Shown here piece after piece: positions 1,078 through 32,077 of a DNA stretch of 48,326 nucleotides; the first letter of the stretch is position 1; each line of letters opens with the position of its first letter. Position numbers and translations under genes: made by a program. Below the pieces are notes generated by a model. That model ran no database searches and was not told where the DNA came from. It saw nothing but the letters and a program-made list of their open reading frames with translations. The stretch is taken from assembly GCA_947167135.1 (NCBI GenBank), contig CAMVGV010000020.1:1-48326 (forward strand), in the 5' to 3' direction. The stretch comes from an uncultured Lachnospiraceae bacterium (lineage in GTDB: Bacteria; Bacillota; Clostridia; Lachnospirales; Lachnospiraceae).

Positions 1078-1113
1078 TCTTCTATCTGTTTTTTAGCTAT
1101 GAAGGAGGATATC

Positions 1114-1680
1114 ATGACTACAACTCAAAAAACATCACTCTATGTCAGGGATCTCTGCTATATTGCATTCTTTACCGCAATGATCGCGGTCCTGGCGCAG
1201 ATCAGCATACCTCTCCCGGGAGGCGTTCCCCTGACACTTCAGACCTTTGCGGTTCCTCTGGCGGGACTGGTTCTTGGTCCGAAAAAAGGCACCATTGCCT
1301 CTCTGGTTTATGTACTCTTAGGCGCCGTCGGCGTACCGGTATTTGCCAATCTAAGCGGCGGTCCCGGTATCGTTCTCGGAATGACCGGCGGCTTTATCAT
1401 TTCCTTCCCGATAATGGCCTTTATATCCGGGCTCGGGTCTAAGAAAAGCGTAAAAAGCCCTCTTCTCTGGCTGTGGCTCATACTTGGGGCGGCAGCAAAC
1501 TACGTGGTAGGAACCGTCTGGTTTATGGCAGTTGCAAACAGCTCACTGTATGCGGCACTCGCTGCCTGTGTGATCCCCTTTATCCCGACTGCCATACTGA
1601 AGATAATCTTAGCGGGCTTCTTCGGAACCATGCTAAGGGGCATCCTCACTAAAGCGGATCTTTTACCCGTCACGGAGTAA
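1114..1680 (+). CDS. bioY: BioY, substrate-binding (S) component of the ECF biotin transporter
   Basis: BioY is the membrane subunit that captures biotin for energy-coupling-factor transporters. The protein (188 aa from the chosen start) has about six hydrophobic segments. It carries the family motifs: an N-terminal AQISIPLPGGVPLTLQTF stretch, LGPKKG, a long Gly-rich GVPVF...GGPGIV segment and GGFI. Although an ATG exists at 1099, the strong ribosome site AAGGAGG (1102-1108) lies behind it and 5 nt before the ATG at 1114, so I take 1114. No ECF ATPase genes are next to it; the shared ECF module is presumably encoded elsewhere. Control by BirA is indicated by the operator at 1024-1056. Confidence 0.95.
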   Translation: MTTTQKTSLYVRDLCYIAFFTAMIAVLAQISIPLPGGVPLTLQTFAVPLAGLVLGPKKGTIASLVYVLLGAVGVPVFANLSGGPGIVLGMTGGFIISFPIMAFISGLGSKKSVKSPLLWLWLILGAAANYVVGTVWFMAVANSSLYAALAACVIPFIPTAILKIILAGFFGTMLRGILTKADLLPVTE

Positions 1681-1789: not shown

Positions 1790-2155
1790 CAAAATCAAAG
1801 GGGCATCGACTGAAACAAAACTTCGATGCCCCTTCAAGCTATTGTATCATCTGCATATCCCATTGGAACGTACCTCCTTAATGCATTCGTATCTAGCGCT
1901 CATCTATTAGATCGGGCCGGTCGTCCTCACCTGGTCGGTAAGACTCTTATATGTGATTTTCGCCCGCTTCCGCCTTTACGTATGCGTTTTATGCAAGTCT
2001 GCTGATACAAAAATAAGTTGTGTTGAAAATAATTTGTCCGGCGGTCTGTACCTCCATTTCTTAAGGGATTCGAGTAGAGATAGTTCCGATCAATTCCTCT
2101 ACCTCCTCGGCCGACCCTCTGTGCCGGTCTCTTTTTTTGTCTCTCTTGTTTTGAT
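1790..2155 (-). ncRNA. Orphan non-coding RNA candidate, about 360 nt
   Basis: A near-consensus promoter (2162-2190) and a 12-bp terminator stem (1798-1834) bracket about 360 nt on the minus strand that hold no reading frame longer than about 22 codons. The interval has several purine-rich GGAGG segments, a possible stem around GTAGAG/CTCTAC and GC-rich runs, as expected for a folded RNA. I compared it from memory with RNase P RNA, tmRNA, SRP RNA, 6S RNA, T-box leaders and common riboswitch cores and found none of their hallmark sequences. It lies between bioY (convergent) and degV (divergent), so it is a stand-alone unit and not a leader. A tiny frame of 9 codons with a good AAGGAGG site sits near its 3' end. 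The function is unknown. Confidence 0.5.
1798..1834 (-). terminator. Strong hairpin terminator
   Basis: AAGGGGCATCGA and TCGATGCCCCTT form a perfect 12-bp stem with a 13-nt loop. On the minus strand it is followed by TTTGATTTTG, so it ends the minus-strand transcript starting near 2155. It probably also stops read-through from bioY. Confidence 0.75.
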
Positions 2156-2161
2156 GATATG

Positions 2162-2190
2162 AGTATAACTCCAGTTTATAAAATTGTCAA
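2162..2190 (-). promoter_or_regulatory. Strong sigma-A promoter of the orphan RNA
   Basis: On the minus strand TTGACA (2185-2190), a 17-nt spacer and TATACT (2162-2167) make an almost perfect sigma-A promoter. No protein-coding gene follows it on that strand before the terminator at 1798-1834. Confidence 0.75.
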
Positions 2191-2356: not shown

Positions 2357-3259
2357 ATGGGCAAGGTTGCAATAGTAACGGATACAAACAGCGGCATAAC
2401 ACCGGAGCAGGGAAAGAAAGACGGAATATTCGTCCTTTCCATGCCCTTTATTGTGAATGAAAAGGAATATCTTGACTGCGTTAATCTGTCGCAGGACGAA
2501 TTTTACGCTTTTCTGGCAGAAGGGGCGGAGGTGACCACCTCACAGCCTGTTGCCGGGGATGTTATTGCGCTGTGGGACAGAATCTTTAGTGAAGGCTATG
2601 ACGAGATCGTTCATATCCCTATGTCCTCCGGACTTTCCGGCGCCTGTGCCAATGCCAGGATCTACGCCGCCGATTACGGATCAAAGGTACAGGTGGTAGA
2701 TAACCACCGTATTTCCGTCACCCAGCGCCAGTCCGCCTATGATGCCAAATATCTTGCGGAAAATGGATATGATGCTGCCGGGATAAGGTCGATACTTGAG
2801 GAAGTAAAGAATGAGTCCAGCATTTATATCACAGTGGACACTCTCGATTATCTGAAGAAGGGCGGACGCGTCACTCCGGCGGGAGCAGCCCTTGCGAAGA
2901 TACTGAATCTGAAGCCCATTCTCTCCATCCGGGGTGAGAAGCTCGATGCCTTTTCAAAATGCCGTGGCACCAGGCAGGCAAAGAACATTATGATAAAGGC
3001 AATAAAAAACGATATTGAAAACCTTCTCGGAGGATACGATCCGGAAAACCCGGATATCTGGCTTGCGGTGGCACACACCAGAAATGAAGAAATGGCAGCG
3101 GAATTTGCGGAGGAGATCGCCGCAGAATTCCCTAACTGCAGCATCTATACAGACTCACTTCCCCTGAGCATTTCCTGCCATATCGGACCGGGTTCCCTGG
3201 CGATTGCCTGCTCAAAGACCGTAAAGGACGGACAGCCCTACCCTTCGATTAAAAGATAA
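2357..3259 (+). CDS. DegV family protein (fatty-acid binding, FakB-like)
   Basis: DegV/EDD proteins bind a long-chain acyl group in a two-domain fold, and the FakB members present fatty acids to the kinase FakA. The sequence (300 aa) shows the family landmarks in order: VTDTNSGI near the N-terminus, TSQP, the SGLSGAC acyl-carboxylate loop, DNHRIS, LDYLKKGGRV, LKPIL and the C-terminal HIGPGS. The frame is open further upstream from a TTG, but that codon lies inside the promoter, so I start at the ATG at 2357. No fakA neighbour is visible. It ends 12 nt from the convergent SGNH gene. A second, more distant degV lies at 30994-31833. Confidence 0.9.
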   Translation: MGKVAIVTDTNSGITPEQGKKDGIFVLSMPFIVNEKEYLDCVNLSQDEFYAFLAEGAEVTTSQPVAGDVIALWDRIFSEGYDEIVHIPMSSGLSGACANARIYAADYGSKVQVVDNHRISVTQRQSAYDAKYLAENGYDAAGIRSILEEVKNESSIYITVDTLDYLKKGGRVTPAGAALAKILNLKPILSIRGEKLDAFSKCRGTRQAKNIMIKAIKNDIENLLGGYDPENPDIWLAVAHTRNEEMAAEFAEEIAAEFPNCSIYTDSLPLSISCHIGPGSLAIACSKTVKDGQPYPSIKR

Positions 3260-31872: not shown

Positions 31873-32077
31873 TATAATGATTTGGACGCCAAAAGTCACA
31901 TTTTGATTAAACACGGATTGTTCCGTGCTACGCACTCCCACAATCCTACCCCACACTCGCATTTCGCGGGGCCCCTTCCCCACTTCATGCTCGTGTAGGA
32001 GTGCGCCCAAAGTTCTTGTCACCACACAAGCAAGCTTGTGTGGTGACAATTACTTTTGGCGCTTTAATCATATTATA
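31873..32077. repeat. MITE-like, multi-hairpin intergenic element
   Basis: An imperfect terminal inverted repeat bounds about 205 bp: TATAATGATTTGGACGCCAA and on to 31896, against the complement ending at 32077. The core GCCAAAAGT/ACTTTTGGC is exact (31888-31896, 32052-32060). Inside are a stem GGATTGT/ACAATCC (31915-31946) enclosing GTGC-TAC-GCAC and a perfect 16-bp stem TTGTCACCACACAAGC with its complement and a 2-nt loop (32016-32049). There is no convincing protein frame. The base composition in the centre is GC-rich compared with its flanks. It could be a non-autonomous mobile element or a structured RNA. Confidence 0.55.

Follow-up and report, generated by a model that had tools for sequence, protein, structure and literature searches.

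A stretch of 48,326 nucleotides from an uncultured Lachnospiraceae bacterium (hereafter, the window) carries on its minus strand what looks like a gene for a stand-alone RNA, its transcription being predicted from the sequence. This RNA is apparently a member of an undescribed group in gut and rumen Lachnospiraceae. Its key feature, absent from the reading of the locus in an earlier note, is a repeated Shine-Dalgarno (SD)-like element, AAGAAA-N-GGAGGUACRGWCCA-NNN, of which the window RNA has two copies (box1 and box3, versions of one element) and related units have 1 to 12. We read the elements as putative extended SD sequences; the RNA group would then be new but its principle, the binding of SD to anti-SD, known already. 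The best explanation, held tentatively and at somewhat less than an even chance, is a strongly promoted, stand-alone RNA that would bind ribosomes, either trapping 30S subunits or starting futile mini-ORFs, in many relatives at several sites.

The unit and its neighbours comprise the following features.

2162–2190, minus strand: promoter, with TTGACA at 2190–2185, a 17-nt spacer and TATACT at 2167–2162; predicted start near 2155.
1791–2155, minus strand: predicted RNA of about 365 nt, from the window sequence and relatives.
2061–2106, minus strand: weak 5′ element, with GGAGG at 2106–2102 and a tiny ORF from TTG to TAA at 2093–2061 (10 codons, MIGTISTRIP).
2035–2064, minus strand: element 1 (box1), start-less type, TTAAGAAATGGAGGTACAGACCGCCGGACA; matched by profile R2 at E = 7.6e-4 in its own genome.
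1899–1970, minus strand: box2, a covarying two-helix domain, outer helix CGGGC/GCCCG, inner helix GUCUUACC/GGUGAGGAC.
1834–1880, minus strand: element 2 (box3), TAAGGAGGTACGTTCCA followed by the tiny ORF ATGGGATATGCAGATGATACAATAGCTTGA (1863–1834, MGYADDTIA); matched by R2 at E = 4.4e-4.
1791–1834, minus strand: intrinsic terminator, 12-bp stem 1834–1823/1809–1798 with a 13-nt loop and a T-rich tail.
1099–1680, plus strand: bioY (PF02632, by Pfam), convergent with the RNA gene, which is on the other strand.
2357–3259 as scanned, plus strand: degV (PF02645, by Pfam), pointing away from the RNA.

The promoter, which the earlier note had recognised, has 11 of 12 consensus bases and was the best of six promoter-like sites between 900 and 3300; such sites were no more numerous than chance would give (3.5 expected, sd 2.4). 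The locus is nevertheless more than a chance arrangement, because the layout of promoter, element and terminator recurs in relatives whose flanks have diverged. In 71 of the 94 units, a permissive TTGAC-type promoter pattern lies upstream at a distance of 260 nt or less. The previously described unit of about 360 nt with a 12-bp terminal hairpin agrees with the limits given above. The terminator stem consists of AAGGGGCATCGA (1834–1823) and TCGATGCCCCTT (1809–1798), is followed by the imperfect T-run TTTGATTTTG and is paired in the predicted fold of the window RNA; it was read from the sequence, as our hairpin scan took loops of 3–8 nt only and a terminator with a 13-nt loop is thus unlisted.

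The statement that nothing beyond about 22 codons is encoded here was roughly true of the RNA strand, on which mechanical ORFs within the unit reach 27 codons (TTG) and 22 codons (ATG), but not of the plus strand, on which two frames that overlap the unit have 59 and 69 codons. A 55-codon minus-strand frame starts at the terminator and extends out of the unit. Both neighbours had likewise been said to point away; degV does, but bioY faces the RNA. Neither is a cis target. The degV homologue was the commonest neighbour (12 of 51 loci), mostly in the same divergent position and in the window's clade, and other clades have other flanking genes; we take this partly kept linkage as descent and not as a functional pair. 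It is very improbable that the RNA serves a downstream gene as leader or attenuator. An element does lie upstream of a same-strand frame in L060 and L107 (the element and a short ORF come directly before it and may serve as its leader), and a same-strand gene, HAD-like by eye, is downstream in L085, L089, L093 and L097; however, the window's bioY is convergent, downstream neighbours vary between clades in kind and strand, and no conserved co-directional downstream gene was found among the 51 loci.

We scanned Rfam 15 (4227 families), a check that the earlier note had proposed, over the whole window, over 1700–2350 with lax filters, and over 58 further loci (18, 20 and 20). At the locus no family scored as high as its gathering threshold, the best below-threshold match having 18.8 bits against 56. 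At the 58 further loci, no gathering-score match lay over an RNA of this group, as judged by coordinates; those beside the group RNAs were tRNAs, one Clostridiales-1 RNA and two group II intron ends. The sole gathering-score match in the window was a Clostridiales-1 RNA (RF01699) at 31904–32070 on the minus strand (135.1 bits). In L012, the element RNA has a further copy (54.1 bits) next to it; L014 and L110 have weak matches.

6S RNA folds into a long closed hairpin that has a bubble at its centre. The 6S model (RF00013) had no match at the locus, where the predicted ends of the window RNA do not pair with each other, and found no 6S RNA in the window's whole genome (G000) at E <= 0.001, while five control genomes matched. 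The window RNA could conceivably be a functional stand-in for 6S RNA. The literature that we searched held no description of the element or the RNA; a large prediction set from human microbiomes (PMC8040213) may contain members. Rfam 15 seems to lack this widespread gut and rumen RNA group; a possible reason is that what its members share is a sequence element of about 20 nt and not a fold.

Of the 48 genomes from the genus, 32 contain relatives of the window RNA: a covariance model (R1) detected 27, with a single match per genome, and blastn added five with a diverged form that it alone detected (G021, G024, G025, G037 and G043). By itself, blastn (E <= 0.01) gave matches in 22 of the 48. Homologues read by hand have the promoter, the conserved boxes and the terminator within roughly 300–560 nt. 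R1 was built from an alignment of the box2 domain (A1; 79 columns) holding 21 of the 23 sequences tried; L009 was identical, and the regular expression failed to pick up L071. No member of the diverged clade (L014, L015, L017–L019, L102 and L108) is included. In A1, 98.2% of cells were paired and 7 of 13 pairs had changes on both sides. None of 500 shuffles was as high on any measure; slid versions were 31–48% paired, a comparison that favours the structure, which was drawn from the A1 sequences themselves. The conserved homologues with compensatory changes that the earlier note suggested seeking therefore exist, and its proposal of a new structured RNA or small-peptide locus was largely right: no Rfam family covers the locus, box2 covaries and, as described below, tiny ORF signals are kept.

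R1 matched the window's box2 at E = 2.0e-18 (with the window sequence in the training set). Among 65 other loci it was strong in L100, L084, L119, L116, L077 and L071 only, all of the window's genus type, with weaker matches in L075 and L014 (19.3 and 18.5 bits). Box2 is thus restricted to part of the genus, single-copy and not family-wide. A consensus fold of the full-length RNA was rejected: RNAalifold gave just a 4-bp hairpin (27 sequences) and the single-sequence fold of the window RNA was unremarkable (z = −1.66), so we claim structure for box2 only.

The repeated element, by comparison, is spread across the family. Its exact ATG-form pattern occurred in 49 stretches of the GTDB collection, 48 of them titled Lachnospiraceae or other Clostridia; the remaining one is from Lactococcus and lies inside a 239-codon ORF. 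With one mismatch allowed, the pattern was found in 60 of 397 family genomes versus 6 for a reversed control pattern, part of the 60 being chance matches at ordinary genes (L062 and L070). We also used R2, a sequence-only profile of 78 elements with the window's own among them; A2 holds these 78 of the 94 listed elements, and the 94 exclude a subgroup whose ORFs are longer. At E <= 0.05, R2 matched 118 of 200 Lachnospiraceae genomes, against about 10 by chance, and 26 of 196 genomes in the class, three of those from Lachnospiraceae. Outside the family, L161, L162 and L181–L183 carry the element and tiny ORFs. The window's genome had two clear R2 matches, box1 and box3, and a third that is probably chance (E 0.017); it carries one such RNA. 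A phage RNA was also considered and rejected, as the one stretch found in IMG/VR lies in a 142-codon frame.

At a loose threshold, 61 of 103 units had at least two elements, and at a strict one (score >= 14) 43 of 94 had a single clear element. Arrays of 8–12 elements occur in L045 (the same place as L058), L049, L044 and L167; the arrays of 7–12 elements, these four and L175, mostly have spacings of about 50–60 nt and extend up to about 0.8 kb. None of 90 neighbour distances was below 47 nt and 38 were within 47–63 nt; distances of 45 and 46 nt in L161, from another family, bring the measured minimum to 45 nt. The 47–63-nt spacing would correspond to about one ribosome per site. The distances, the strict element count and the upstream promoter count were made after nine loci had been dropped as coding or chance (L060, L062, L070, L091, L103, L121–L123 and L130); the same rows were dropped from the upstream-box counts and the first frame test described below. 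L059 (G166:C57) has two element RNA units in tandem about 760 nt apart, each with its own TTGACA promoter. The subgroup comprising L032–L036, L056, L065 and L086 has ORFs of 15–18 codons, mostly with a QYESG-like end, a by-eye conserved AATATGAGAGTGG..ATGCATAGCAGTTCC and a different accessory domain.

We classified the triplet NNN in 201 non-redundant elements, a set that leaves out the nine loci above and L120, L124–L129 and L184; near-duplicate elements were removed in the frame tests. The triplet was a start codon in 122 elements (ATG 104, TTG 16, GTG 2). The other 79 were start-less, with CCN in 41 (CCA 24, CCG 15) and other triplets in 38 (AAG 17, ATC 7, ACA 5, AAA 4 and more). Start-type elements have an in-frame stop 2–18 codons on (MGYADDTIA* in the window), and all three stops are used (TAA 63, TAG 31, TGA 20). 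The mean distance to a stop was 5.4 codons in frame versus 12.6 and 15.0 in the other frames (n = 122). In the first element set it was 6.3 versus 14.5 and 13.0, and at loci fetched later by profile (n = 52) it was 5.2 versus 10.5 and 17.7; the medians of this later set (3, 3 and 11) are less clear than its means, with 3 codons both in frame and in frame +1. Because the elements are related by descent, the small p-values of the frame and spacer tests are inflated. In start-type elements, the start codon and in-frame stop are kept. A stop is retained in start-less elements too, in most cases UAA three triplets on, and this fixed UAA is more likely an RNA motif than a sign of translation. We rejected the idea that the element (AGG TAY RGW CCR, encoding RY-G/S/R-P) closes the coding sequence of an upstream ORF as its C-terminus, as upstream open lengths of start-type elements were alike in the three frames (17.6, 17.2 and 16.1); they were less even for CCN (18.7, 17.2 and 12.0) and other (20.9, 14.5 and 19.2) elements.

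The tiny frames raise the question of a micropeptide locus whose product is a short MG...DE... peptide. Within the window's clade the peptides are alike (MGYADDTIA, MGYADETIG, MGQEVMDESSR and MGCSDESNS, with MGHEVTDEISK in L071); the box3 ORF is also found in relatives, and every listed clade member is open to a stop 9–16 codons on, just before the terminator. Elsewhere in the family, however, no conserved peptide sequence was found: the frame encodes MG, MGK, MGR or MYT, varies freely or has no start. A micropeptide product is accordingly a poor prospect, and the peptides look incidental.

For pairing with the 16S rRNA, the assumed 3′ tail was GGAUCACCUCCUUUCUA, that is, the B. subtilis tail with one 5′ G, which we presume to precede it; the tail may differ in the host genera. 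The B. subtilis tail is the one given in the available text of PMC5427494. A search for the 16S tail with E. coli-type flanks found it in 0 of 20 genomes. The start-less consensus, AAGAAA-N-GGAGGUACGGUCCA, would pair along most of GGAUCACCUCCUUUCUA (predicted −21.3 kcal/mol). Mean predicted duplex energies were −16.9 (start), −17.6 (CCN) and −18.0 kcal/mol (other), compared with −11.0 kcal/mol at 251 gene starts (best of up to six candidates each), a comparison that favours the elements, which were picked for GGAGG. In the window RNA, the values were −16.4 for box1, −15.6 for box3 and −13.7 kcal/mol for the weak 5′ element, at whose equivalent position several relatives also have a tiny ORF. 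Shuffling the spacer alone weakened the mean pairing from −17.3 to −14.8, and the complementarity of the spacer is suggestive only, since on average 17.7% of shuffles paired equally well. In predicted folds (the nine loci above and L107 dropped), start codons were open (0.61), unlike the CCN triplet, which was closed (0.27); SD accessibility was average (0.40 versus 0.39 for all G).

A spacer conserved nearly as well as the SD, retained in start-less copies, together with a variable copy number, would also fit a sponge, comparable to CsrB for CsrA, whose target would be some RNA-binding protein or anti-SD small RNA specific for GGAGGUACRGWCC. CsrA itself was rejected as the partner. It was above cut-off in 61 of the 118 genomes with the element and in 47 of the 82 without it (odds ratio 0.80, Fisher p = 0.47; both searches taken as the same 200 genomes), its presence thus being independent of the element; it was found in 27 of 38 RNA-bearing genomes (39 of the 49 exact-pattern stretches taken in). 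Further, eight other one-mismatch matches in the window's genome look coding by eye and have no start codon 10–21 nt on, and a sponge leaves the start codon and in-frame stop unexplained. We therefore regard a sponge as improbable. CsrA-like matches in open frames of 101–131 aa were seen in G453, G456, G462, G466, G468 and G482; in G456, G462, G466 and G468 this match accompanies a usual CsrA.

Ribosome capture, the explanation that we prefer, would operate as follows. The strong promoter would let the RNA accumulate, and each element (AAGAAA-N-GGAGGU, two looped-out bases, RGUCC) would dock a 30S subunit via the 16S 3′ tail. On AUG or UUG elements, a ribosome would form, make a few peptide bonds, meet the early stop and depart; on start-less elements, a 30S subunit without a start site would be held, maybe until displaced. 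The RNA could then act in trans as a decoy for ribosomes or 30S subunits, damping initiation on weaker mRNAs, and several sites per RNA would compete more strongly with weak mRNA starts. The sequences establish the gene, its conservation, the covarying domain, the repeated element, the frame-specific early stops and the minimum spacing, whereas pairing with 16S rRNA, 30S capture and any physiological effect are inferred. In favour of this explanation are the predicted pairing strength of the elements, their early in-frame stops, their spacing, the up to 12 copies per unit, as in titrating RNAs, the differing flanks of the clades and the independence from CsrA. The units with a single clear element argue against it, many units not being multivalent, as do the average SD accessibility and the fixed UAA of start-less elements. 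Further, with one such RNA in the window's genome, titrating ribosomes would need very high expression.

Ribosome binding leaves box2 unexplained, and box2 must presumably do something more. The main rival starts here: the RNA would be a trans-acting base-pairing or structural RNA with the variable region (box2 in the window) as effector, and the elements would be stabilisers like STAB-SD, a bound 30S subunit blocking a 5′ exonuclease. According to the available text of PMC4113751, STAB-SD can interact with the 16S 3′ end but directs no translation in doing so, and RNase J1 is blocked by the bound 30S subunit. That box2 covaries, is single-copy and is confined to part of the genus fits this rival, as do the units (43 of 94) in which just one element is clear and the element near the predicted RNA start in L162 and L181–L183. 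In contrast, arrays of up to 12 elements and a copy adjoining the terminator would be superfluous for 5′ protection, and we consider this rival somewhat unlikely.

Upstream of the group RNAs, we found a CodY-box-like palindrome (AATTTTCWGAAAATT, at most 3 mismatches) in 29 of 61 non-redundant regions versus 3.2 in shuffles (L013, L028 and L083 are examples). It starts 37 nt upstream of the −35 box in 4 regions, 45–49 nt in 9 and 79 nt in 3, with 13 scattered. Of 13 genomes tested, 12 encode CodY, and the window's genome is one of these; the window promoter is a poor match to the box (6 mismatches). CodY regulation is a lead suggested by these sites and not a result. A wider proposal, which is possible but doubtful, is that Lachnospiraceae and some other Clostridia have dedicated ribosome-decoy RNAs with one to many super-SD sites, start-less or with a mini-ORF and at least one ribosome apart, that would set the free 30S pool or the initiation rate by nutrition through the CodY-like boxes. 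If the elements capture ribosomes, translation initiation would be under global control exerted directly by an RNA.

Several known systems resemble the group RNA in part. CsrB, which titrates CsrA, and RsmZ are sponge RNAs that stand alone, end in a terminator and have a variable number of GGA-containing sites. The group RNA is alike in these respects; in contrast, it has no link to the presence of CsrA and has a conserved spacer, a start codon and an in-frame stop. RNAIII and SgrS are dual-function small RNAs, in which a regulatory RNA contains an internal ORF; the group RNA also has internal ORFs, but these are of 2–18 codons, unrelated in sequence and set at repeated sites. Minigenes, ORFs of two or a few codons such as bar of phage lambda, lie in or beside genes, whereas here start-stop ORFs are repeated within a dedicated RNA. 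According to the available text of PMC8708949, the start of a minigene is followed by a near-immediate stop. STAB-SD, known from cry3A mRNA and others, is an SD-like sequence that can interact with the 16S 3′ end (PMC4113751, available text), and complementarity to the 16S tail without a start codon was likewise found in 79 of the 201 elements (CCN −17.6 and other −18.0 kcal/mol with the B. subtilis tail). STAB-SD, however, is one site in an mRNA leader, whereas the group RNA stands alone and has 1–12 copies, many of them followed by an early stop after a start codon. The rancRNAs are small ribosome-associated RNAs thought to act on the ribosome; tandem SD units and mini-ORFs, present in the group RNA, are not mentioned for them in the available text of PMC8938821. 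If ribosome capture is the purpose of the group RNA, it would be a new kind of RNA, playing for the ribosome the part that 6S RNA plays for RNA polymerase.
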